DNA of 64,000 nt from Willaertia magna (Eukaryota > Heterolobosea > Eutetramitea > Acrasida > Naegleriidae), in contig CADWAF010001970.1 in assembly GCA_902984215.1 (NCBI GenBank), positions 56,927 through 120,926 of the forward strand, read 5' to 3'. This document shows positions 5,749-42,297 of the stretch, piece after piece. The position numbers and the translations under genes were made by a program. The notes under the pieces are model-generated. The model saw only the letters and a list, made by a program, of their open reading frames with translations. It made no database searches and was not told the DNA's origin. Within the stretch, counting starts at the first letter, position 1, and each line of letters begins with the position of its first letter.

Positions 5749-8700
5749 TTACAAATCAAAATGTTGTTCAAATTGTTGAGTTAATTCCATACTTTTTTGT
5801 AACCTTTCAAACTCTTCAGTTAACATAAATCTTGAAAAAGTATCACCTAAATTCTGTAAAATAGCATATTCCACATCAGCTAACAAATTCTTCCACTCTT
5901 TTTCTATTCCTTCTAATCTACCATTCTTTTCAATTAATAACGTAACAAAATCTAAAAACAAACGTTTACTTTTTGAAGGTAAATTTAATTCCATTGGACC
6001 TTCAACAAGATAGGTATCTCTAAAGGATTTTAATTGTGAAAGTAATTTTAGTTCATTTGTTTCGTTTTTAAAGCGATGATATTCAACGAATGCATATAAA
6101 TTTTCTAAAGAAAATTCTTGTTTACAATATTGTTTAAATAAATAGTAATAATGTTTGTTTTTTAAGATTTCTTCAATTTCACAAGATTCTTCTTCTTCTT
6201 GTTGTTGCTGTTGTTGATCTAATACTATTGTACTACTGTTACTATTATTACTATTATTATTCAGGGAAGATACAGATTGTGATGGATTATTTATACCCTT
6301 ATTCTTTTTCTTTTGATTTCTTTTTCTTTTAATAAATCTAATAAAAGCAACAAAAGAAGTAAACCCACCAAATATTAAAATCCAACAAAATACATTTACA
6401 GTTTCAGTAGCTAATATTACAGTATTATAAATATCAATCATATTAACTGTAGAGGTTGAAGGATTATTATTATTATCAGTATTACTATTAAATCTTGTTG
6501 GGATAGATAAAAATCCAATAATAAAAGAGGCAACAAAGAAAATTAAACCAATAAAGAAAATAATTAATTCTAATCTAAAAAGTAAAGTATCATTAACTAT
6601 AAAATAGTTATAAATATCTCTATAAAAGTGTTTTACTCCGTAAATTCTTCTTCCTTTTTTACCATTATTGTTGTTATTTGTTGATTTTACATTATTTTCG
6701 TTGTTATTAGAAAATGTTTGCGTGGTATTTATAATATCATAAAATTCATTTGTATATTGTTTATATTTAACGGATAAATAAGCATCAAAAATAAATATAA
6801 TAAATAATAAAAATGAAATAAATAATATTGTTGTAAAGTAGGAAATGGAAATTATATAAACGAATATATCTTGTGAAATAATTGAAAAGTTCTTTAATAA
6901 AACGAATAATATGTAATATAAAGCAGTTGCTATAAATAATGTTATGCTTATTGTAATATAAACTTTAAATGAACTTAATGATTTTAATAATTTGTTTTGA
7001 TATTTTGGATTATTTGCAATTAATTCATACATGTATTTAACAATTAAATATCTTAAATTTTGTAATAAATAAGTTGTAATTGCAATAATTGTTAATGCAC
7101 ATGTTACAATAACAAATGCATTACTTATTATATTTGCATCTTTAATGGATTGTGTTATTTTTACTGAAAATAAATCTCCTTCTGTACTTTGTGTGAAAAC
7201 TGCATTAGCAACAATACCAACAAAGATACACTTGAGCAATAAAGAAATTAATCCAATGTGTGGGGTAACATATCTACTCTTAATTAAATTATCTTTTCTT
7301 TGGATTAGTAAAGAAATAAAGATCACACCAATGAAAATTATAAAAATACCTGAAATAATAATTTGTGCGATGGACATTCTTCTTTGAGCTTGTAACATTG
7401 CAGTATTTAAGTTAGTTGATATTTCTAAAAATACTGTGAAACTGGTAGTGTGGGTACAAGCACAGGTTAGAATTTTCTTATCATTTACAAAAGTGGATTT
7501 TACAAAGTAACAACCATCACCTTTCCACTGTTGTGATTTTTCATCAAAATATTTGCATTGATAAGTTGTATTAACGTCAAAATATTTCAAATCAATATCC
7601 ATGACATTTTCAAATTCTTCAAATGTCATAGTTAAAGGATTTGTTAAATTCGTTAATGGAACATAATTTCCATTAATAAAGGTTGTAAATTGTGATATCT
7701 TAGTAGCTATCACTGTAACATTGGAAGTAGTGTTATGGTTACTAGGATTAAATAATACACTACTACTATTTGGTAAGATAAACAAGTTATCTACATCATA
7801 GTGAACAGCACCAAAAGCTATATTGTTATTATTTTGAGATAAAATATCTGAGGGTATGTCAAATCCATAATTTCCATTCACTGTAATATTTAAATTATCT
7901 AAATTATTTTTTGGTCTGTAAAATAAAATTTTAATATTCTTATTTTCAATTTTCTTTTCTTGAATGCTTGTTGATAAGGAAAGTAAAGATAATGAAGTTT
8001 GAACTATTGATTCTGTTGAAGTTAATAAAGTAGAATGTGTATCTGATGTTGAATTAACAGCTAAAATATTATTAAGTACGTTAGAAACACCTGAAACAGA
8101 ATCACTAGCTTTTTCATCAGTTAATAAATTATTCTTTTTTGCATCTAATATGAAAGAACAGTATTCATTCATTTTGTTTGTAATGTTAAGTGTTAAGGAA
8201 GATAATTCATCAGTATATTTAGTTAAAGATTCGTAAGCTGTTAATAATTGTGTTCCATCATCAACATTATTGATAGTTTTACCTTGTAATGTAGATATTA
8301 ACGATTTTAGTAAGGATGACTTGTTTTCCTTAAAGTTATTGTCATCAGATGCTATTTTCATTATTGCTTTAAGACTGAGTTGATCTAAATTATTAAGGGC
8401 ATACTGAATATCAATTACAGTTATAGTTTTAGTTGCTTTTCCTACAATAATATCATCAACTTGAATTTCAACTGCTAATGTATAAATACCTTTGTTTGGC
8501 ATAATGAAGGTAATATTATTGTCAAATGTTATGGAGTTAAATAGGTCATTAATTCTGTACTTGTAAATAAATGATTTTGAATACTTAGGCACATTGTTAA
8601 GTCCTATTTGAATACTAAACGAAGTATAATTTTCAATTCCAATGAATGAATCACTAATAAAGTTGATGAAAGCAGTATCAATTTTTTGGTATTGGCATTC

Positions 8701-17890: not shown

Positions 17891-18033
17891 CTAAGTTTCT
17901 GTCACACTTTCTGTTTCAAATTTAAAGGTGCTTAATTGTTGTTTTAATAATTCTATTTCATCTCTGTCATATAGTCTGTTTCTTGCAATTGTTGTCATTA
18001 ATTTTCTTTTTTTAACAGAATAATAGCATTGCA
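17891..18033 (-). pseudogene. 3' part of a small membrane-protein gene split by the mobile element
   Basis: Open to TAG at 17891-17893. It encodes a basic, then charged helical tail (YYSVKKRKLMTTIARNR, then DRDEIELLKQQL). It joins the 5' part at 27421-27593: after removing 18034-27420 and one TGCA copy, the two parts total 312 nt, one continuous 103-codon frame. Either the insertion inactivates the gene, or a paralogue or unoccupied allele carries the function. Product not recognised. Confidence 0.65.
18027..18033 (+). repeat. Left target-site duplication (CATTGCA)
   Basis: CATTGCA here matches CATTGCA at 27418-27424. If the tips are taken as the perfect inverted pair ATGTGACCA/TGGTCACAT, the duplication is TGCA (18030-18033 and 27421-27424). 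Both models give the same empty-site sequence. Confidence 0.65.
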
Positions 18034-19353
18034 ATGTGACCAGCCATTAGTTATATAAAAAATGTGTCTAGAGACTATTTAACCAATTTTGAAAAAGATA
18101 TAAAAGCACTAACAATAAAATAAAAAAAATGGCTAAACAACAAACCAATAAAATCACCTACCATTATCAACAACCAAACAATATACCCACCATCACTTAA
18201 CCAATACCTATCATCATCATTTCCATCCAATCAACAATATTATAATAATCAAACAATAACTTCACCATTATTTGAAGTTAATAATTATTTTAATAATAAT
18301 TAATACTATCAAACATCAACAATGTACCCATCATTACTTAATCATCATTATTCATCATCATTTCTATTCAATCAACAATATTATAATAATCAAACAATAA
18401 CTTCACCATTACTTAAAATTAATAATTATCTTAATAATAATCATTATAATACAACTTCACATCATTATGAAGTTAATAATAATTATTATAATAAAACATA
18501 TTTTCAACAAACAACTTCACCTTTATATGAAGTTAATAATAATAATAATAATAATAATATATTACAATAAACAAACCAACAAACAACTTTACCATTATTT
18601 AAAGTTAATAATTTAAATTATAATCAACATTCAACAGCAAACTATAATAATAATAATTATATATTAAATACATTAGTAAACAATAATAAAAATAATATAT
18701 TTTATAATAATATTAAAAATAATGTAATTAATTTAAATAATATTAATAAAACTTCACTTATTATTGAAGTTAATAATAATGAAATAATTAATTTGATTAA
18801 TGATAAAAAAAAGAAAAAGAATTTGATATAATAAAAGAAATGGGTGATTTTCAGTTTGAATGTAAATATAGTAATAAGAAATTATATAAAATGGATGTAA
18901 TTCAAAGAGAAATATTAAAATTATAATTTTAAACATTTGCATATGTTGTAAGAAATGTAATATTTAATTTAATGAATATTAATGGATATAAATATAAAAG
19001 AAATATTGTTATTGGATGTATTGAGCTGAAAGTATTTTATTATTACTTTTTCCATGAAATGGAAGGAGTGATATTTAAAAAGAAATATGAAACATTAAAG
19101 AAAAATAGTTATAAAGAAAAAAAACTATGTATTATGTTTAAATTTAAAAATACATTGTTAATGTTATATAATATTAATAGTTGGAGTATATATGAATATG
19201 AAGCTAGAATTAAAGGAAAAAATAATAAAATATTTATTACAAAATATAAACTAAATATAGAATATATAACTTTTGTTTGTAATTTAAATAATTATATCGT
19301 AAAAACCACTTTTAAATATAGATAACAAACATTTATTGATCAATGATGAATTT
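18034..19353 (+). repeat. Left terminal inverted repeat
   Basis: Matches the reverse complement of 26474-27420, including a near-identical block ending AGAGACTATTTAACCAATTT and conserved decayed coding sequence further in. It is longer than the right copy by a ~400-nt N/Y-rich stretch (about 18420-18830). Confidence 0.75.
18129..19325 (+). pseudogene. Decayed ORF within the left terminal repeat
   Basis: Fragments begin with ATG at 18129 (MAKQQTNK) and continue in shifted frames as MYPSLLNHHYSS..., N/Y/T-rich low complexity, EMGDFQFECKYSNKKLYKMD, and NINGYKYKRNIVIGC ... KGKNNKIFITKYKLNIEY. The right-repeat copy keeps the same segments. Where the copies differ at stops, one often has CAA and the other TAA. 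The original protein had a low-complexity N-terminus and a compact C-terminal domain of unknown role. Confidence 0.55.
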
Positions 19354-20366
19354 AGTAAGTATTAATAAAAGGAAAATATATAAATAAATATTATTTCAAA
19401 AGGTTGATTTAATTTATAAAAATAAATTTTAATAAAAAAACAATATTAAAAAAATATATGATTTTAATTTTGTTTAAACTTATGAAGATAGAAATGTAAG
19501 TATAAATAATTTATATATTGTGTTATATATTTTGATTTTATTAATTATGATATTTCAAATAATAATATAATTAAAGATATAACTTTAAAAAAAAACTATA
19601 AAAACTAGATTATTTAAAAGTTTAACAGAACTTTATTTTATTTTTAAAGAAGATATTGATTTGTTGAATAAATTAGAAACTTTTAGTATTGAAATGGAGG
19701 ATAGTTATAATTGTAAAGATAATATTGAGTTGATTTTAACAACTAAGTATGATTTTAAATCAAAGAATAATAAAGATCAACAAAATCATGATTCAATACT
19801 TTCAATAACAAATAAGAAATCTCAAGCATTTGTTTGTTTTGTAAATAATAAGTAAATAATAAAAAATATTTTTTAATTTTATTAATTTTTTTGTTACTGT
19901 TTTAGTGGGAAAGGAGTGTTGGTTATTGAGGTTTTTAGTGAAGGTTTTTGGTATATTACTCATTCTTCTATCAATATATATAATCAACGCCCCAAAGGCA
20001 CAACAAATATTTTCGCACCTTTTATATTATTATTATTCACTAGAGTGTGTCTTTAGAAAAAACGTGGCAGATGAGAATAATATAAAAAGTGAAAAAAAAA
20101 TTGTGGTGCCCTTGAAGTGATGATCATATATAATAATATATAAATGTATGTCCATAATCTTGTTATTTGGGATTTTTAACTTATGTAGATACTGAAAACT
20201 TAAAGAAATGCTTAAAACTATGACAACAAGAAAACGTTTTGTAAATAAATAAATATTTATTGTAGTACAAAATATATTATTAATAATAATTATCAATCAG
20301 TAGAATTAAAAATTTCAAAAGCCTGAGATTTCTTACTCTTAATTGATACAGCTTCTTTTGTATTTA
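19354..20366. other. Inner left segment with a possible captured exon
   Basis: Between the left terminal repeat and the last minus-strand ORF. It contains the plus-strand ORF fragment at 19512-19762. A locally GC-richer plus-strand stretch (19905-20120) reads GKECWLLRFLVKVFGILLILL... with one hydrophobic span. It lacks an ATG but follows a good acceptor (CTGTTTTAG), so it could be a captured host exon; not proven. The rest shows nothing. Confidence 0.3.
19512..19762 (+). pseudogene. Second, inverted copy of the C-terminus of the element's last ORF
   Basis: Plus-strand reading IYFDFINYDISNNNIIKDI matches IYFNFTEYDICNYNIVKDI in the minus-strand ORF at 20367-22124. After a frame shift, TELYFIFKEDIDLLNKLE, then YNCKDNIELILTTKYD match TEPYVKFNDDLSLLSNLK, then HNCKESIELKLKTYYN. 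It shows that a second, partial copy of the element sits here in opposite orientation. Confidence 0.65.
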
Positions 20367-22124
20367 TCATAATTTATGTTTTTTTGCACAGGGATTATAA
20401 TAAGTTTTTAATTTTAATTCAATACTCTCCTTACAATTATGATTATCAAATTGAAATATATTATTAAAATTCTTTAAATTACTTAACAAACTTAAATCAT
20501 CATTAAATTTAACGTACGGTTCTGTAATATATTTATATAATTTTGATGTTTTGAAATTTTTTTTTAAAGTAATGTCTTTCACAATATTATAATTACAAAT
20601 ATCATATTCTGTAAAATTAAAATAAATAGAAGAATATAAAATTCTTAATTTAATTAATAAACATTGTAATATTTTTAAATTAGTTAGTGTTGGAAAATAT
20701 ATTTTTAAATAATTTCTACAAGTACCTCCATTTTTAGTAGTATTTTCTAATAAATCTTCATCATCTATATGAGATGCCTCAAAATTTTGATTTTTAAATA
20801 TTTTAATATTTAAATAAATTTTTAAAATACTTATCATATGATTATTAAATAAATGTAAATACTAACATTTGTTTGTGTTTATAGAATATTTTTTAATATA
20901 TAAATTTGAAAAATCATTAATTAATATTTCTATATTATCTATTTCCTCATTTGTAAAGGCTTTGGTAGAGTTATTTAAAATATTAATAATATGTATAAAC
21001 TTTATAAATAATAAATAATCTTCTTTTTCAATACAGTCTTTAAATATATGAATATTATTAAAAAAATTATCACATTGTTTCCCTGTAACATATATTTTAA
21101 ATTTATCATCATTAGCTAGCTCTTTATTTATTTTAAAATAATTAAATGTTGGTATTGATTTAATTAATTTAATAATTTCATCTTCTTTTACTATGCTTGA
21201 ATTAAGTATTATTTTTAAAAAATATTTAACAACATTTTCTTTTAAATATAAAAGACATAATATAATTTTACTAGGCCCTAAACCTAATAATAATCCTAAT
21301 TCATCAACAGTCCTCTTTAAATGGTCATGAGAACAATAAAGATTAGTAGTATTACAATAAAAACAAAAATCTTTCTTTGTTATTGAACTAATTGATTTAA
21401 TAGTTGCCCAATCTATTGTTACAAAAAAATCAAAAGTAAATTTAATATTTTCTACTATTAAACCATTATTTAAAATATCTTTAATATCATCTCTAAATAT
21501 TTTACAAATATATCTAAAATCTTTTTTTTTACTATACCACATAACTAAAGGAAAAACTCTAACTCTTGTCATAAAATTTCCAAAACTTCTTAGATTAATA
21601 GGAGCAATTGAAAAAACCACTCTATTTTCATCAACTAATGATGTACCATCTAAGTTTAATCTTATGTATGTTTTAAATGAAGTTTGAAAATTATTATTTT
21701 TATTTTTTAAAAACTTTAATATTTCTTTATCTTTTTCTTGGAGCAATATGGTATTATTTTTTTCAATTAATTATATCCATTTAATGTGATATAATAAATA
21801 ATGATATAATAATTTTTTTAAACTACAAAATACTATCTCCTTCTGTTGATGTTTTACTACAGATATATTAAATTCTTTAATAATTTTTAAATTTAATAAC
21901 TTTCTAAAATTTTGTAAGGAGTATAAAGAAGAAGAAGATGTATTTTTACTTAAATTATTATATAAAGTATAAGTTTTATCAGAAAATAAACATTTATCTT
22001 TAATATATAAATCTCTTATATTCTTCTATTGAATAATAATATTTTTCTTAATTCTCTTTCTATAAGCAATTTGTCCATTATATATATAATTTTTAAGTTC
22101 TCATCTTTTTCTTTTATTATCCAT
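20367..22124 (-). pseudogene. Element ORF4, candidate transposase, four in-frame stops
   Basis: A single frame of 586 codons from ATG 22124 to TAA 20367, broken only by TGA (codon 8), TAG (33), TAA (118) and TAG (421). Each is one C-to-T change from CGA, CAG or CAA. Visible features: basic start MDNKRKR, an NLDGTSLV acidic motif (~145), a TIDWATIK acidic motif (~240), then FCFYC...LYCSHDH (a Cys/His cluster that could bind zinc), and a helical C-terminus. The order DG, D, CxxC recalls transposase-like proteins of animal and protist elements, from memory only; no catalytic triad can be assigned. It begins 3 nt after the preceding ORF's stop. Confidence 0.55.
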
Positions 22125-22127
22125 TAC

Positions 22128-23604
22128 TTATTGACTGTTTGTTGTGTTATTTATTTCTTCTTTTGTTTCATAATCTGTTTCTAAATCATCTTCATCACTT
22201 ATATATATGACAGATGTTTCTTGTATAGTATTTGGTTGATTTAAATAATTGTTATTTATAACTTCACTATTATTTAAAGTTTGTTCTCTTATAACTTCAC
22301 TATTAACTAAAGTTTCTTTATTTATAACTATAGTGTTATTTGAAGTTTCTTTATTTATAATTTTACTATTATTTAAAATTTATTCTCTTATAACTTCATT
22401 ATTATTTAAAGTTTGATCTCTTATAACTTCATTATTATTTAAAGTTTGATCTTTTATAATTTTATTATTAATTGAAGTTTGATCTTTTATAATTTCACTA
22501 TTAATTGAAGTTTGATTATTTATAACTTCACTATTATTTGAAGTTTGATTGTTATTATTATTTAAATTTTTAATATATTCATTTAAAACATAATCTTCAA
22601 CATTGCTATTGTCTATTTGAATAGTAATTTCTTTTGTTTCTTGTAAAATATTGTAATTAATATAATTTAGCATTATTTCTTTTTCCTTTTTCAATATATT
22701 AATTTCTTTTTCTTCATCCAAATTAGTATTAATAAATAATAATAATTTATTTTTATCTTTATTATCTAAATCCCAAATAATTTGTTTTAAAATGTTTGGA
22801 AATAATTTTAATAAGATAGTAAATAGTTCATTAAATTTTATGTTAGCATTAAATAAAATAAATTCTTTTCCTAATAATATATTTCCAAATTTTTTTCGTT
22901 GATAATAGTTATTGTTTATATTATTAATATTGTCTACAAAAGTTTGTAAATTTGGTGATATTGTATATAAATTGTTATTTTGTAAAACATTATTTTTATC
23001 ATATTCTTTAACATTTGATAATCTTAAAAGATCATAAATATCAAATACAAAAAATTTATTTATATTATTATATCTATCTTCTTTTCTTAAAATATTTATT
23101 TTATTTCCTTTTACAAATTGCTTAAAATATAAAGAATCAATATCCACATCTTCTACTTTATTTAAAAATAGTCTTCTGTTTAATAAAATTGGGCTATTAT
23201 TAAAAGTAATATGTTTAATTACAGATAAACTTAAAAAAGATGAAACTGAGGTTGAAATTTCTTTATTATTTAAGTTTATTTCAAGAGAATTTCTTTTGTT
23301 AAAAACTTTACCATTATTTGAAGTTATAATTGTTTCAGTATCTTCATTGTTATTTGAAGATGGTAAAAATCTTTCAATATCTTCATTATTATTTGAAGAT
23401 GTAAAAAATAATTGAGAATTTCTTTTGTTAAAAACTTTACTATTATTTGAAATTGTTGTTTCAGTATTTTCATTGCTATTCGAAGATATAAATTGTTCTG
23501 AATGTTGAGAATGTGGATTGTTGAGAATAGGAAGATGTTGTGAATAGAGGTTAGTATTGTTTTTAAAATTTGAAGATTGTAAAACAGAAAAGTTGTTTGT
23601 TCAT
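22128..23604 (-). pseudogene. Element ORF3 with 11-residue tandem repeats
   Basis: An ATG at 23604 follows an A-rich leader, but the long open frame is offset by one base from it, implying a frameshift near the start. The frame then runs to TAA 22128 with one internal TAA (22380-22382), where sibling repeats have CAA. The N-terminal half is S/N-rich with repeated SSNNNEDIE-like units. The middle is compact (VDIDSLYFKQFVKGNK...). The C-terminus holds tandem QTLNNNEVIRD-type repeats. Unrecognised. Confidence 0.5.
22256..22552 (-). repeat. 33-nt minisatellite, nine units
   Basis: Nine 33-nt units on the plus strand of the form TTATAACTTCACTATTATTT followed by GAAGTTTGATCTC, with substitutions. 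Each encodes 11 residues of ORF3 on the minus strand. Each unit contains a degenerate AACTTCA...TGAAGTT palindrome. Confidence 0.85.
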
Positions 23605-23676
23605 TTTTTTTAAAATTTTTTATATTTTATTTAAAAGTCAACAATCAATTTATTTAATACCTTAATACAAAAGTTC

Positions 23677-25350
23677 TTAACTAACATAAAAGCCATAATT
23701 TGAATTATTATTTTCTTCTATTTCTTCTATTTCTTCTTCTAATTCTTTTTCCATATCTTCTTTTTTATTAATTTTAATTTTATTGTCATTTATGTCAATA
23801 TCTATAATGCGATAAATTATACGTTCATTAATTAAATTAAATATTTTATGATATCTTTCAGATTTTAAATTATCTTCTAAAAATATATAACTAAATAACT
23901 CTAAATGGTCATGTAATTAACTATTTTTTCTATCATTACATTCCTCTATTTTCTTTTTAATTAAATTAATAAAAGCATTATATTTAATTAAAGTTAAACC
24001 TTTATGAAGTTTATTGATTCTATAATCTTCAATATTAAGCCATGACAAAGTATTACTATAGAATTTAATACAATGTAATAGTTTTTCTTTAATTTCTTTA
24101 TTTGAAAGAGTATATTTGTTTTTTTTTTTAATATAAGCTGACAAATAATTAAATATATCTTTATCCTTATTATTGTAAATAAAATATTTGAAATCGATTG
24201 AAGAAATATAATAAGTATTATTAATCAAAACTAAAGGAACATCAGTAAATTTCTCTACCTTAGGTAAAACTTCATTATTATTTAAAGTTGTTGGAGTTTT
24301 TGGAACTTTATTATTTATTGAAGTTGTTGGAGGTTTAATAACTTTATTATTTGTTGAAATTATTAAAGGTTTAATAATTTTATTATTTGTTGAAGTTGTT
24401 GGAGTCTTTGTAACTTTATTACTTGTTAAAGTTGTTAGAGGTTTAATAACTTTATTATTTGTTGTTTTTTGAGTATTTGCAGTTGTTGAAGTGAATGTAG
24501 TTGAAGCAGATGTAATAGAAGTAGTAAGAGTAGTAATCTGTTTCTTTAATGAAGAAAATTGGTTTTCTTTATAAAAATCTATCAATTTCTCTTTATAATT
24601 ACTATCTATGTCTTTTAATAATTCTGTTGAATTTGAAACTTTATCAGTAATATCTTTAACTTTGCCCTCTATTTTCTTCATTACTATTTCATAAGTCTCT
24701 TTATCCATCATATTATTTTCATAAAAATATTTAACTATAGTACTATACAATTGATTTTTCTTTAAATATTCTATATAGTCTAAATTTATTCCTCCTTTTA
24801 GTAGTTTAGTTTGTAATTTTTTATAATTTTTGATATGTGAATTTAAATAGTACTTTTTAGATTTATAAATTGCTAATATTGTTTTGACTTTTTCTTTTAA
24901 AGTTTTATCTATAAACACTTCATTCAATATTTTAAGCCTCACTGCACTAACTAATATTGATTTAGATAAAATCAATATCCATTGTGGCATACTTTTAAAT
25001 GTTAAATAATAAATATAGAACTTATTATTTAAAGTATTTTTAACAATTACTTCCTTTTTTTTTAGTTCGACTGGATTATTATTGTTATGATTATATGAAT
25101 TGAAAAAGAAAGTTATTACTTTAAGGGTATAGTTATATAATAGTGAAATGTCTTTAATGTTATTTTTAATAAATAACATGTCATTATTAATTTCTTCTTA
25201 TTTAATTTCACTATCTAAACTTTGAATGTTAACCAAAATGGAGTTTTTTATATAATTATTTATTTCTTTAACTAATGGATAATTAATTTCTTTTAATTTT
25301 TTAAAATTCTCCATATACTTTTCTTTTAAAATATTTTGATAAGTAGCCAT
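23677..25350 (-). pseudogene. Element ORF2, two in-frame TAA stops
   Basis: A frame of 558 codons from ATG 25350 (MATYQNILKEKYMENFKKL), interrupted by TAA at 25198-25200 and 23917-23919, ending at 23677. It is helical and basic in its first 250 codons, then has 12-residue STNNKVIKPLTT-type repeats, then a second compact region and an acidic tail of E/I runs. Its start overlaps the end of ORF1 by 50 nt in another frame. No recognised domain. Confidence 0.5.
24268..24463 (-). repeat. 36-nt minisatellite in ORF2
   Basis: About five to six 36-nt units of the AACTTTATTATTTGTTGAAG type. They encode 12-residue T/N/K/P repeats and again carry a degenerate form of the element's AACTTCA/TGAAGTT palindrome. 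Confidence 0.75.
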
Positions 25351-26134
25351 AACTTGTTAAATCTTGAAAACAGTAAGTGTATAGTTTATGTTCTATTTTT
25401 TTTATTATTTTAATTTCATATTTACGTAATCTACTTAACAATCTAAAATAATAATCTAATTTAATATCTTTATAATCATAATAATCACCTTCTTCATTAT
25501 TATAATCTATCTTTTTCTTAGGTGGTTCATAATAATTATTATAATTATTATAATTTCTTTTTAATTGTTTAACTTCATTAATATATGAAGTTGTACTATT
25601 ATTAACTTCATAATTATGTGAAGTTTTGTTGTTATAATATTTATTATTAACTTTATAATTATGTGAAGTTTGATTATTGTTGTTATAATTTTTATTATTA
25701 ACTTCATAATAATGTGAAGTTTTGTTGTTGTTGTTATAATTTTTATTATTAACTTCATAATAATGTGAAGTTTTGTTATTGGGGGAATAGTAAGAGTTTG
25801 AATTTTTACTATAACCATAAGCATTATAGTATTGATCACCATATTTATTACTATTTTGACGGTTATTGTAATAGTGGTTATTGTTGGAGTGATATTGGTT
25901 ATTATAATATTGATTGTTGGTTTGACAGTTTTGATTATTATTTGGACTATGATAGTATTAGTTGTTAAAATGATATAGCATTTTGTTATAGTTTCGATTG
26001 TTGTTGTTGTTAGTATTATTAAAATGATTGTTGTTTGGTTTGTTGTTATTGTTGTTATGACGGTTATTAAAAGAATTGTTGTTTGGTTTGTTGTTATTGT
26101 TGTTAGGATGGTTATTAAATTGATTGTTTGCCAT
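25301..26134 (-). pseudogene. Element ORF1, N/Y/Q-rich, one in-frame TAA
   Basis: ATG 26134 (MANNQFNNHPNNNNN) runs to TAA 25301 in one frame of 278 codons, with TAA at 25958-25960. The N-terminus is almost pure N with H/P/K/R; the middle has tandem KTSHYYEVNNKNYNNN repeats. A normal-complexity C-terminal region (EPPKKKIDYNN...DYKDIKLDYYFRLLSRLRKYEI) follows. It may be a nucleic-acid-binding partner of the element's enzyme; that is speculation. Confidence 0.5.
25571..25776 (-). repeat. Hairpin-bearing tandem repeats in ORF1
   Basis: Several units of roughly 50 nt, each containing AACTTCA-N8-TGAAGTT (able to form a 7-bp stem) separated by AATAATAAAAATTATAACAA-like spacers. Confidence 0.8.
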
Positions 26135-26321
26135 TTTTTTTAGGTTTTTTTTTATTTTTAAAATCAAATCAAATTTTTTACCGCTAATTCTACTACAAAA
26201 CACAAATAGCCAATACATAAAACAATTTTTTTACAAACAACAATCAAAAATATTTATTTAAAATAATTTTGTATAAAAATTTAATATTTTACAATACCTT
26301 TCGAACAAAATGTAATGAAAT

Positions 26322-26443
26322 AAATAAAAAAATAAATCTCTGAGATACTAATATAATTGTAAAGTGTTCCAAGTTTTTCTTATTAAAGCAAAAAACTTAA
26401 AACGAATAATTATATTATATCTTAGAGATTCATTTCTTTATTT
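26322..26443. repeat. Imperfect 36-bp inverted repeat
   Basis: 26322-26358 pairs with 26408-26443 (shared core AATCTCT.AGATA.TAATATAATT and complement) around a ~50-nt loop that itself contains AAGTTTTT/AAAAACTT. It lies between the right terminal repeat and ORF1, possibly an internal end, a promoter structure or a nested small element. Confidence 0.55.
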
Positions 26444-26473
26444 AATTAATTAAATTACAAATAATCTTATCTA

Positions 26474-27420
26474 TAATTCTATTTATTGATCTATTAAAGT
26501 TTCTTGTTTATATTTAAAAGTGGTTTTTACAATATAATTTTTCAAATTACAAACAAAACTAATATATTCTATATTTAATTTATATGTAATAATAAATATT
26601 TTATTATTTTTTCCTTTAATTCTTACCTCATATTCATGTATTCTCTAACTATTAACATTATGTAACACAGATAAAAAAATTTTAAATTTAAACATTATAC
26701 AAGGTTCTTTTCCTTTATAACCATTCTTTTTTAAAGTTTGATATTTCTTTTTAAATACAGCACCTTCTATTTCATGAAAAAATAATAAAAAACTTCAGTA
26801 TCAATACATCTAATTATAACATTCCTTTTATATTTATATCCATTAATATTCATTAAATTAAATATTACATTTCTTACAGCATATGCAAATATTTTGAATT
26901 GAAATTTTAATATTTTTTTTTTGTACAACATCCATTTCATATAATTTCTTATTTAAATATTTGCATTCAAATTTAAAATCACCCATTTCTTTAATTTCAA
27001 GTAATAGTAAAGTTGTTGTTTGATTATTATGATAATGTTGATCGGATAGAAATGATGATAATGAATAATGATAATGATGATTAAATAATAAAGGGTACAT
27101 TGTTGATGTTTGGATGTATTGATTGTTATTATTATAATAATTATTAACTTCAGATAATGGTGAAGTTGTTGTTTGGTTATAAAAATATTGTTGATCGGAT
27201 AGAGATGATGATGGGTATTGGTTAAGTGATGGTGGGTACATTGTTTGGTTGTTGATGGTAGTAGATAGTTTTATTGGTTTATTGTTTAGCTATTTTTTTT
27301 ATCCTGTTGTTAGTGCTTTTATACCCTTTTCAAAATTGGTTAAATAGTCTCTGTATATATTTCTTCTAAAACAAATGGTTGGTCACATCTTAGTGAAACA
27401 CATTTTTTGTATGGTCACAT
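26474..27420 (-). repeat. Right terminal inverted repeat
   Basis: Reverse-complement copy of 18034-19353. The outer tip is duplicated: ATGTGACCA occurs at 27420 and again at 27388 on the minus strand. Confidence 0.75.
26483..27293 (-). pseudogene. Decayed ORF within the right terminal repeat
   Basis: Counterpart of 18129-19325. The start codon has become ATA and the second CAA a TAA (ATAGCTAAACAATAA versus ATGGCTAAACAACAA on the left). An open piece is MYPPSLNQYPSSSLS... to EMGDFKFECKYLNKKLYEMD and ICICCKKCNI. It keeps CAA at some sites where the left copy has TAA. Confidence 0.55.
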
Positions 27421-27593
27421 TGCAGTGATTCTTCCATTAAACAAACACTAACTTTATGGCTAAGAAATTTTCCACTTAAATTTGTTTTTTCAATAAAATC
27501 CCTTACAGAGAGAACTACAAAAGCTGCACTAAACAACAGTATTACAATTATCCAATCTCTCCAGGCATGCTCTGTTGATAGAATATGAAGCAT
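27421..27593 (-). pseudogene. 5' part of the small membrane-protein gene split by the mobile element
   Basis: ATG 27593; 57 codons plus two bases before the insertion. It contains one clear transmembrane span (~14-30, DWIIVILLFSAAFVVLSV) and ends MEESLQ at the element boundary. Without the element the frame continues directly into 18029-17891. As it stands, reading runs into the element and stops after seven codons. Function unknown. Confidence 0.65.
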
Positions 27594-38152: not shown

Positions 38153-38196
38153 ATTAATAAAAATTGGTACCGTATATTACTAATACTGTAATCCAA

Positions 38197-38495
38197 TTTT
38201 TGGTAGATTTTGACACTCTCTTTCTTTGAGGGTGATTAAATAATGTTATTTCTGCGCCCTCAAAAAGAAGAAAGAGAAAAAATAAAAAGTAATGGTGCTT
38301 GCAGGGATCGAACCTGCGACCAATGGCTTATTAGACCAACGCTCTACCGACTGAGCTAAAGCACCTCTTGCTATTTCTTTTTGTAAGTAGCAGTTTTGTA
38401 ACTGGCATTTTCACGATATCAATTTATAGTTATTGGGTGTTGGAATGAGTAAAAATTATTTTTTATATATATATTATTTTTTATTTAGATTTTTT
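38197..38495 (+). repeat. Left arm of ~300-bp inverted repeat carrying tRNA-Ile
   Basis: Nearly identical to the reverse complement of 41959-42260, with scattered substitutions and a few single-base indels (for example CGCCCTC versus TGCCCTC, GTAGCAG versus GCAGCAG). It includes ~96 bp beyond the tRNA 3' end and ~130 bp beyond its 5' end. A hairpin CTCTTTCTTTGAGGG...CCCTCAAAAAGAAG lies at ~38216-38275. Confidence 0.9.
38293..38365 (-). tRNA. tRNA-Ile (AAT), copy 1
   Basis: 73 nt: acceptor GGTGCTT/AAGCACC, D arm GCTC/GAGC, anticodon loop CTAATAA (AAT), T stem GCAGG/CCTGC, discriminator A. Position 27-43 does not pair, shared by all copies. Identical to copy 2. Confidence 0.93.
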
Positions 38496-41400
38496 ATTAG
38501 TTTAACTATATTATAAATATATTAACTTTTCTTTTTTTAGACTTTTCACTTTTTTATTATCTATAACCAATAACTTATTCACAAGAAAATAACAATCTAT
38601 ACATTTTTTATATAAAATAACACCATCAAACAAATTGTTTCATATTGAGTGTTTTGTTATTAATAAAATAAATTTATAAAAATATACTTTACAACAAAAT
38701 ATTACAATTAATTAAACAATAACATATCTTTGTTATTACTTTATTAAATATTATTTTTATTATTTATAATAAATATATTTTTTTAATTGTAATATATTCA
38801 TTATAATTATAACTCTTATATTTTATGTTGTTTATAATTTTTAATTTAATATTATCATTAATAATATTATAATCTATACCATATATAACATTTTTATCTT
38901 TTATTTTTATTAAATTAAATCTAAATATATCATAAATATTTACATTATATGAAATAAATAAAATTTTTAATTTATATAAAAAAATTTGTAAATAAACTGT
39001 ATTTAATTATTTTTATATTTTAAAACATTAAATATATATCTATCAATAATTCCAATTACCTTCTCCTCTATTATAATAATAATCATCAATATTTATATTA
39101 TTTATATAAATAATCTTAAACTTTTATAATTTATACATAATTAATAGTTTAAATCTTTATAATAAATATTTATTATATTTATACAAAATATAATTATATA
39201 TTGAAAAAAATTTAATAATATAATATATAGTTTTAACATTTTTTAAAAATTTATTAATATTAGTTTCCATTTAATTATATATAATATTTTCTATAAGTAT
39301 ATATAATTATAATATTTATAATATAAAGAATTTTCTATGTTATAATAAAAATATTTATTATTTTTATTCAATCTATTAATAAATCAATTCATTATCAACA
39401 AATATAAATAATTAAAAAATTAATTTTATCATTTCTGATAATATTGATTTCATTTTTATAAAAATTAATAATATTTTTAATATTTTTTCTTTTTTATTAA
39501 ATATAACTAACAAAAATATAGATTAATTACTTTAATATAATAAACTATATATATTATATAAATAAAAAAAATTACTTTATTTTTTGTTTTACTTATAAAA
39601 GTTACTTCAATATTTAATTTAAACCAATATTTCTTATTTTTTCAATTAGAGTCTACATTATTAATTTTTTAAATTCTTTTTTTTTATAATTATTTTTTTA
39701 TCATAATTAATTAAATAATTAATAATTTTAATTAATGAACAATAAAATATTTTAGAATTTATTTTAATATCAATATTAAATTCTGTTTAATATATATAAA
39801 TTTAATAATGTGTTTATTTTTTGTAATTTATTAATATTTATAATTTTATCTTTTAAATTATTTTAAATACAAAATTCATGATATTGATTTTTTGATAATT
39901 TTAATATGTTTTTTGTAAATAAATTATTTATTTCTTTTTTTGTTATATTAAAATTATTTATTTTTAATTTTTTTTAATTTTTATTTAAATTTTTATATTG
40001 TAAATTATTATTTATATTATTAGTGTTTAAATTATTATTATTTAAATTATTGTTATTATTATATTTATTTTTTTTAATTTTTTTTTAATATTTTTATTTT
40101 TAATATTTTTTTTTCTTTTTTCTAAATCTAAATTATATTATTTATATTTATCTTTAAATACAAATAAAATATTATTTTTTATATTTTTTAATTCATTAAT
40201 AATTAAATTTTGTAATTTTTTTGATTTTTTTATATAAAAATAGAATTATTAAAATTGTATTGTAAATAATAAAAAATTAAATTTTTAATTCCTTCAATAA
40301 ATCCATAAATAAAAAGAAACAAATCGATAAAAATAATTAATTTATTTAATTTTTATTTATTTCCATAATTTAAATTTTTTACTTTACTTTAAATATTAAC
40401 AATAATATCTTTTAATTTATTATTTTTCAATATTTTTAAAGTTGTTTTTTCTATTATATTAAATTTTAATTTTATAATCAAATAATTTTTTTACAAAAAT
40501 AAATTAAAATCATATAATTTTATTTTTTTATTCAATAAAATAAAATCAAAATCAAATGATAAAAAAAGAAAGAAAATTAAATATTAAAAGTGTTTTCTTT
40601 ATTTAAAGAGTTATCAAAGTAAAATATAATATTTTCTTTACTACATATTATAATTTATAGCTATTTAATATCTTTAATATTTTCATTTTTTTCATATAGC
40701 ACTATAAATAATTTTTTGTTTTTCAGTTAGATTATTAAATGTATTGTTGATTCTTTTGTATTATAAATTTATTTTAATTAATATTACTTTGTGTACAATA
40801 TTATTGTTTTAATGTTTATTTAGTATTTTTTATATTATTTAAATAACTAAATATTGATAATTAATTATCATTTATTGTCATTTTGTTTTATCTAAATTTT
40901 ATAATATATAATGTATACTTTATTTTGTTTTTATAATAAAAATAATTTTTATTATTTTTTTATAAAATCTTTTTTTATTTACTCAACCTTATTTTCCTTT
41001 TTAATAAAAAATAAACTAAACTTTTAAGTTATTTTTTATATTAAAATAATATTCTATTAACTAAATTAAAATATCTTTTATTATTTATTTTTTATAGTTT
41101 ACAGTTTAAAAATATTAATATATTGTTTTTATAGTTTACAGTTTAAAAATATTAATTAAATAAAAACAATTAAAACAATATATTAAATTAAAATAATCTT
41201 AAAGTTAAAATTTTATATAATTTTAAACAAAATTTTTAAGTAAATTAATTTATAATATTTATATTTATTTTATATAATAATAAATTTAATAAAAGAAATA
41301 TTATTAAATAAATTTTAATAAAAATATTAATTTTAATTTATTTAAATATATATTATGATTAATCTAATTTATTTATTATATTTTTTATAAATTTTTATAT

Positions 41401-41958
41401 TTTAATATGTCTTTATATATAATTTATTTATATACAATACATTTAATAAAAAAATTAATTTTAATAGTAAATATAATAATTATTAATTTTATTTTATTAA
41501 TATTATTAAATTTTTTTACATAATTTTATTAATTTATTTTGTATATATAATAAAAAAATTAATTTATATTTATTAAATTAAAAATTAATTTAATTAAACT
41601 ATAATATAAATAATATATTAAAATATAAATTTTATTAATAAATAGTAATATAAATATAAAAATATAAAATATATAAAAAATTTAATTATTATTTAGTTTA
41701 ATATAATTATAATTAAATTAAGTACCTTCATTAATAAAATTATAATCTTTTTTATATAAAATTAGTTTCTTTTTATTTGTAATAGTTATTTTAATAGTAA
41801 TTAAATTATTAATTTTAATAAAATCAAATAAATTATTTAAAATTTTAAAAAAAAATATTTTAAATTAACTATATAATCTAAACACTAATAAATAAGTATT
41901 AATAGTATTATTTAAATGTTAATATTTAAATTGTTTTATATTTATTATATTTTTTTTA
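38496..41958. other. 3.46-kb extremely AT-rich core between inverted tRNA repeats
   Basis: Almost only A and T, with no ORF of 60 codons. Minus-strand remnants of coding sequence can be read: near 38750-38960 (YNVNIYDIFRFNLIKIKDKN...) and near 39800-40270 (ITKKEINNLFTKNILKLSKN, frame broken by TAA). These suggest decayed N/K/I-rich protein genes. A directly repeated ATAGTTTACAGTTTAAAAAT occurs near 41093 and 41133. No RNA gene or intact repeat family seen. Confidence 0.55.
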
Positions 41959-42260
41959 AAAAAATCTAAATAAAAAATAATACATGTATAAACAATAATT
42001 TTTACTCATTCCAACACCCAATAACTATAAATCGATATCGTGAAACTGCCATTTACAAAACTGCTGCTTACAAAAAAGACATAGCAAGAGGTGCTTTAGC
42101 TCAGTCGGTAGAGCGTTGGTCTAATAAGCCATTGGTCGCAGGTTCGATCCCTGCAAGCACCATTACTTTTTATTTTTTCTCTTTCTTCTTTTTGAGGGCA
42201 CAGAAATAACATTATTTAATCACCCTCAAAGAAAGAGAGTGTCAAAATCTACCAAAAAGT
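41959..42260 (-). repeat. Right arm of ~300-bp inverted repeat carrying tRNA-Ile
   Basis: Partner of 38197-38495. Similarity stops sharply at CTACCAAAAAG (42260), about 40 bp before the next gene's ATG, and at AAAATCTAAATAA on the core side. Confidence 0.9.
42090..42162 (+). tRNA. tRNA-Ile (AAT), copy 2
   Basis: Identical to copy 1, opposite orientation. Same cloverleaf with AAT anticodon. Confidence 0.93.
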
Positions 42261-42297
42261 AAATTTCCTATTTTATACACTCCCCAAACTAAAAGAA

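Follow-up and report, generated by a model that had tools for sequence, protein, structure and literature searches.

Nested copies of an undescribed transposon family, probably a CACTA/RAG1-like variant, split a small gene of Willaertia magna

A small gene of Willaertia magna (Heterolobosea), a free-living amoeba, is split by ~9.4 kb of AT-rich DNA, which raises the question of what was inserted there and by what kind of element. The gene lies in a 64,000-nucleotide stretch, hereafter the window (contig C416, positions 56927–120926), of a 19.24-Mb assembly in 894 contigs; coordinates below are those of the window. GC content of the inserted DNA is 17.5–20% (2-kb windows) versus ~30% on both flanks. 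An earlier inspection of the letters alone (the sequence-only reading) took positions 18034–27420 for one mobile element of unrecognised type, with long terminal inverted repeats and a TGCA or CATTGCA target duplication. We found that a ~9.4-kb mobile insertion is indeed present, but that it consists of two nested elements rather than one: copy B lies inside copy A, and copy A lies inside the host gene.

Contig C414 carries a relative of copy A that allows the two elements to be separated. The left part of copy A occupies 18027–20037 on the forward strand, as judged by end pattern, collinearity and identity to C414 (93% in the left arm, 94% in the last 520 nt ahead of the break). The match to the C414 right end breaks off at 20037, and the remaining 32 bp of A are found at 27396–27427 on the same strand (30/32 identical to the C414 end, versus 22/32 for the second-best site in the window). 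The intervening DNA is copy B (20038–27395, reverse strand), recognised by its own ends and by collinearity; it sits 32 bp from A's right end in the opposite orientation. Since C414 holds A's right end uninterrupted and B has ends of its own inside the insertion, a single element is contradicted. Inverted arms within the inserted DNA were confirmed by computation; they consist of A's left arm and B's left arm in opposite orientation and are not the long terminal inverted repeats of one element. By end pattern, the outer ends are CATTGCAATGTGACC (18027–18041) and GGTCACATTGCAGTG (27413–27427), both on the forward strand, in place of the tips ATGTGACCA/TGGTCACAT proposed before; the element thus starts 7 bp earlier and stops 7 bp later than had been thought. 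The left end of B is CACTAAGATGTGACC (27395–27381) and its right end CACTAGAGTGTGTCT (20038–20052).

Copy A is a deletion derivative, in which the last part of the transposase gene and the element's right end both come within ~2 kb of the left end; broken relics of the first open reading frame (ORF) and of the transposase C-terminus remain at 18322–18570, 18972–19325 and 19661–19855. The arrangement indicates that A entered the host gene first and B landed in A later. Copy B is collinear with relatives on contigs C520, C850 and C414 except for an internal segment that is present in those three and missing from B. Its left arm shares 89% identity with C850 and 83% with copy A, and its transposase region is 92% identical to contig C170 over 1252 bp. 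Both window copies are defective, so present movement would need proteins from another copy.

Other copies do exist, as the sequence-only reading had anticipated: family-related DNA was found on 14 other contigs, on several of them as short pieces only. Besides A and B, two copies have both ends, on C414 (L013, 8856 bp) and C850 (L029 + L012, 11419 bp); each contains several ORFs. Among the partial relatives, C520 has a left end but no right end that could be recognised; C72 retains just the right end and C378 just the left, and C170 has neither. Searches with the right end added only short pieces at C225 (L048, C225:2680–2754) and C5 (L047, C5:8887–8941). These resemble the family's right end in its inner part (CTATCAATATATATAGTCAACGCCC...) and lack the terminus; the C5 piece adjoins an apparent host gene start. 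A divergent relative on C307 (L022:3699–6861) has three large frames (243, 308 and 535 codons) that overlap end to end in different frames.

The host gene is truly split. Its 5' half lies at 27428–27593 and its 3' half at 17891–18026, both on the reverse strand. A genome search with the joined product returned both halves plus two uninterrupted, stop-free places on contig C335 (E-values 4.4e–15 and 1.8e–14; 45% and 43% identity over residues 1–96). These paralogues match either side of the break, including TIARNRLYDRDEIELLKQQLSTFKF versus TIERNRLFDRNEIELLREKLAEFKF, and are uninterrupted across both halves; hence the two halves belong to one gene, as had been proposed, and the homologues do not end at MEESLQ but run past the break. 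The paralogues (L045 and L046, C335:597–905 and 6941–7249) lie ~6 kb apart in inverted orientation and might compensate for the loss of the window copy. A search for homologues of the host protein gave 2 candidates, none at E ≤ 1. The exact joint is not fixed by the paralogues, which are too diverged at the break. Joining 27593–27421 to 18029–17891 does give 312 nt and an open frame of 103 codons, as stated earlier. However, this join is open only with the TGCA duplication counted, and the restored frame is therefore weak rather than strong evidence as to where exactly the insertion lies. A single fixed 46-codon frame is open by chance in ~1% of cases when simulated with a first-order Markov model.

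The true terminal inverted repeats are short (~15 bp) and imperfect, of the form CACT...AGTG. Ends of A, B, C414, C850, C72 and C378 share CACT, TACT or CATT plus TGTGACC. We called ends by pattern with at most one mismatch, and at this threshold obtained CACTAGAGTGTGACC for C72, CACTAAACTGTGACC and CACTAGACTGTGACC for C850, TACTAGACTGTGACC for C378, CACTGCAATGTGACC for the right ends of C414 and A, CATTGCAATGTGACC for the left end of A and CACTAAGATGTGACC for the left end of B. The right end of B (CACTAGAGTGTGTCT) has two mismatches, and the left end of C414 (CACTACAATATAC) is more altered. CACT/AGTG is seen at C850, C414, C72, the right end of A and the ends of B, while the left ends of A and C378 read CATT and TACT, respectively. 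By subfamily, the terminal repeats are CACTGCAATGTGACC for A's and of CACTARA type for B's. The one-mismatch pattern occurs at 11 places, 3 of them in known copies; none of the other 8 resembles an element end on inspection, and 2 gave short weak family matches. Relaxing the pattern to two mismatches was uninformative (74 forward and 79 reverse matches versus 98 and 101 for the control). A script seeking CAC/GTG inverted ends in the divergent relatives yielded no trustworthy ends.

At the CACT/AGTG boundary, a direct repeat, even of 1 bp, is found in none of the four two-ended copies (A, B, C850 and C414), and none of 289 offset pairs up to 8 bp from this boundary yields a repeat of at least 2 bp in three of the four. 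The empty site of copy B can be read from C414 (TTATTATTATT / AAACACATTTTTTG versus TTATCATCATTAGACACATTTTTTG), with zero bases gained or lost. Absence of a target duplication is thus likely, though unproven, four old copies being a small sample. Copy A does have direct repeats, TGCA of 4 bp and CATTGCA at 18027–18033 and 27418–27424. But CATTGCAATG is self-complementary, so that inverted ends containing it will also show a direct repeat (CATTGCA). The TGCA of A occupies the position where other copies carry TAGA, TAAA or TAAG, and each base outside TGTGACC has its homologous counterpart in CACTAGA/CACTAAA/CACTAAG. In B, the latter belong to the element, since they are absent from A's own right end. 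The repeat noted earlier therefore exists at A but does not hold up as a target duplication, the homologous bases being element sequence elsewhere. As a duplication, TGCA/CATTGCA is unsupported in B, C850 and C414, and we keep a low probability for it in A and C414.

The family encodes a putative transposase, whose core in copy B lies at 20367–21770 (reverse strand), with an in-frame stop at 20862–20864 and a degenerate upstream part. C170 has a stop-free 611-codon transposase frame that is 90% identical to that of the window over 302 residues. C170 matches the window element for 1.6 kb, starting within the transposase gene, and the first residues of the 611-codon frame may therefore not be transposase. 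The C170 and C307 transposases (38% identical) share D239, D318, C334, C337, H504, H509 and E529; a third frame, on C532, has the two D residues and C(2)C and ends ahead of H and E. Putatively, these residues form a D, D, C(2)C, H(4)H, E series in RAG1/CACTA-like order. The remark that the element type is unrecognised holds: the transposase matches no described family by sequence in Pfam, PDB or profile comparisons.

We compared these features with known systems. Members of the CMCT clade are described as having C(2)C and H(3–4)H between the second D and E, mostly CA..TG ends and 2–5 bp duplications (PMC12730594). CACTA/EnSpm elements of this clade resemble the present family in their 5'-CA..TG-3' ends (CACT..AGTG here) and in C(2)C plus H(4)H between the second D and E; similarity to tnp2 (PF02992) of CACTA/EnSpm proper was, in contrast, undetected in Pfam scans and hhalign. 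Compared with mouse RAG1 (D600, D708, C727, C730, H937, H942 and E962), the C-C (3), H-H (5) and H-E (20) spacings are the same, whereas D-D (79 versus 108), D-C (16 versus 19) and C-H (167 versus 207) differ, and there is no sequence or profile match to RAG1 among PDB sequences. Transib makes a 5-bp target duplication, which is absent here. Spy, of the PHIS superfamily, reportedly moves by cut and paste without duplicating its target (PMC4482050), and none of the four copies here has a duplication either. Unlike Spy, which inserts into AAATTT, joined flanks here read AAATTT in one of four copies only (C414), and the zinc motifs are those listed for CMCT.

Overall, we consider it probable that this is an undescribed family, a new variant of CACTA/RAG1-like cut-and-paste transposons, seen here as nested copies A and B, with ends joined without duplication. 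With good confidence, the transposase itself is a DDE enzyme of the RNase H-like type whose zinc insertion is of RAG1/CACTA style; it would cut at the CACT ends and join them to new DNA. The length of a target duplication reflects the stagger of the target cut made by a DDE transposase. That joining leaves no duplication is suggested with somewhat less confidence by the four copies; strand transfer would then be blunt or resected, so that no target bases are duplicated.

Several points weigh against this interpretation. Only four two-ended copies are available, and these are old and stop-bearing (8 stops in the transposase of C850, several in that of C414), so their ends may have changed. Elements of the CMCT clade have 2–5 bp duplications versus none here in 4/4 copies. 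Pfam scans of the transposase gave no Pfam transposase, only weak matches below the cut-off to ATP-synt (E-values 1.6e–4 and 0.045) and LETM1_RBD (E-value 0.003) that look spurious. No relative was found in single-sequence and two-sequence-profile searches of PDB sequences, and hhalign against a tnp2-like protein of the same genome (contig C431) gave a probability of 0.1 and no profile match. Finally, the host join at the corrected boundary is out of frame, while the earlier join is open, so the corrected boundary requires either that the dead gene changed slightly after the insertion or that the joint was imperfect.

The alternative that survives best is an ordinary CACTA-like element whose 2–5 bp duplication has disappeared or become scrambled in every one of the four copies through decay or inter-copy exchange. 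The copies are diverged, contain stops and are few, and the out-of-frame host join suggests some change at or near the site; however, the insertion site of B agrees base for base with C414, and we think this explanation unlikely. Less probable still is a TGCA duplication made only by the subfamily of A and C414, at a palindromic target (CAYTGCAGTG) and with ends from ATGTGACC, B's subfamily being different. This would account for TGCA on both sides of A, for TACA and TGCA at the same places in C414 and for the open host frame, but not for the base-by-base homology of the sequence beyond TGTGACC to CACTAGA/CACTAAA/CACTAAG, words that belong to the element in B. The earlier model, a single 9.4-kb element tipped by ATGTGACCA/TGGTCACAT, with long inverted repeats at its termini and a target duplication of 4 bp (TGCA) or 7 bp (CATTGCA), is very improbable. 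Its boundary does give a 4-bp direct repeat at A and the open 103-codon join, but B, C850 and C414 show no direct repeat there, and the model also conflicts with the C414 right end and the internal ends of B. A virus-like or Polinton-like element, which several genes and a protease motif might recall, can be practically dismissed, as no polymerase, integrase, ATPase or capsid domain scored above cut-off in the ORFs scanned and, of 144 pattern matches in one scan of viral contigs, none was confirmed as a relative. Among the same ORFs, a subset of all ORFs, Pfam revealed none of the Polinton/Maverick genes (protein-primed polymerase, integrase, capsid).

The transposon family interpretation leaves a second feature to be explained, a 22-bp palindrome (AACTTCA-N8-TGAAGTT) that recurs within the ORFs. 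Ten exact copies occur in the inserted DNA (18258–27167) versus 0 in each of 300 Markov shuffles; they start at 18258, 18453, 18513 and 18750 in copy A and at 22524, 25571, 25604, 25700, 25751 and 27146 in copy B. Genome-wide, at most one mismatch being allowed, there are 126 places versus 13 for the reversed control pattern. Among 50 exact places listed, 46 are on C378, C414, C416, C520 and C850, and 4 on C177 (2), C486 and C768; C486 and C768 contain short family-like pieces. In C850, 18 of the 20 exact palindromes are in frame in ORFs of at least 120 codons, and none falls in the last 2.2 kb. The encoded peptide, Thr-Ser-x-x-x-Glu/Lys-Val, occurs 21 times in C850 (7, 6, 2 and 6 across four ORFs). 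Its codons are fixed: Thr is ACT in 21/21 (132/274 elsewhere), Ser is TCA in 21/21 (64/177 elsewhere), Val is GTT in 21/21 (35/81 elsewhere), and the preceding wobble base is A in 21/21 (1261/3061 overall). With a looser peptide rule, four copies together give ACT in 63/67, TCA in 54/57 and GTT in 64/67. Tandem duplication (33- and 51-nt periods) accounts for part of the palindromes, so the copies are not fully independent. Nevertheless, the motif recurs in four proteins, and synonymous sites are frozen while the three middle codons vary, which makes a constraint on DNA (or RNA) the simplest reading. Pairing of the arms in RNA found no favour, with 2 double changes in 67 sites (counted by eye) versus 1.9 expected if independent. 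The C307 locus has no palindromes, and its linkers repeat Asn-Asn-Leu in place of Thr-Ser-x-x-x-Glu-Val.

A tentative proposal, and one of the least certain parts of our interpretation, is that the palindromes are binding sites for an element-encoded protein. Rickettsia palindromic elements also keep a palindromic repeat in frame in coding sequence; here, in contrast, the repeat is 22 bp long and lies in the mobile element's own genes. A bolder version, in which a RAG1/CACTA-type lineage joins without duplication and its in-frame palindromes organise a transposition or silencing complex, coding sequence serving as a binding array, seems doubtful to us. If true, a palindrome fixed at synonymous sites in several genes would distribute binding sites along a whole element in an unusual manner, and RAG1/CACTA zinc motifs without duplication would make the setting of cut geometry testable. 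The findings also add a transposon family from Heterolobosea.

Further ORFs of copy B are all on the reverse strand. A 406-codon open frame (stop to stop) with 33-nt repeats that carry the palindrome lies upstream of the transposase (22380–23600). A 420-aa ORF lies at 23917–25179, and its residues 2–205 and 277–420 match C520 sites 3.3 kb apart; this ORF therefore bridges the site of a deletion by which the peptidase ORF was lost. A 127-aa ORF (26858–27241) is what remains of the first ORF, which has 433 codons in C850. Frames of at least 120 codons in C850 include 433, 286, 328, 282, 340 and 249 aa, plus transposase pieces of 173, 168 and 199; the family also encodes asparagine-rich proteins. 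The segment absent from the window copies possibly encodes a Ulp1/C48-type peptidase. PF02902 matched C520 pieces below cut-off (E-value 1.4e–3, and 5e–4 at 20.4 bits, the cut-off being 20.7), and matched neither a 290-residue C520 construct nor the C850 piece; nor did the C850 piece have a PDB match. The C850 piece reads H-17-D-42-Q-6-C (counted by eye), which we take to be the Ulp1 spacing, while C520 has Tyr at the His position. Whether such a peptidase trims an element or host protein is evenly balanced in our judgement, and is likewise among the least certain parts.

A hypothetical protein of W. magna, ABK040_001486 (P0001), is 100% identical to the window transposase translation where both have residues; this identifies the assembly as W. 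magna, and copy B is therefore also present in a public assembly. Residues on either side of the in-frame stop are missing from this protein, as though the gene model spliced past it. No protein relatives outside W. magna appeared among 8000 and 7733 scored candidates, which gave only 2 proteins, both from W. magna. For strain c2c, a genome of 36.6 Mb with 24.8% GC has been published (PMC6892926); compared with it our 19.24-Mb assembly may be incomplete, and element copies may have been missed. We found no account of this family in Willaertia in the portions of the literature searched, including PMC11702301 and PMC6892926; PMC4914335 and PMC5718144 were also drawn on.

Other candidate mobile DNA was seen in this genome. 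The C431 frame (L051:517–2022, 501 codons; sub-threshold tnp2 match, PF02992, E-value 5.8e–5) is probably a separate CACTA-like element; it was the sole sub-threshold place in a genome search with PF02992, which matched in 0/14 control genomes. Two adjoining frames on C675 (L031:6669–7628) are candidates for a Tc1/mariner transposase, which they resemble by eye. Within the window, a 7–9% GC island (~39–42 kb; 38190–42265) lies between two inverted arms (38190–38382 with 42073–42265, 97%; 38378–38495 with 41959–42076, 94%), each with one tRNA-Ile(AAT) gene, and is possibly centromere-like or a mobile island.

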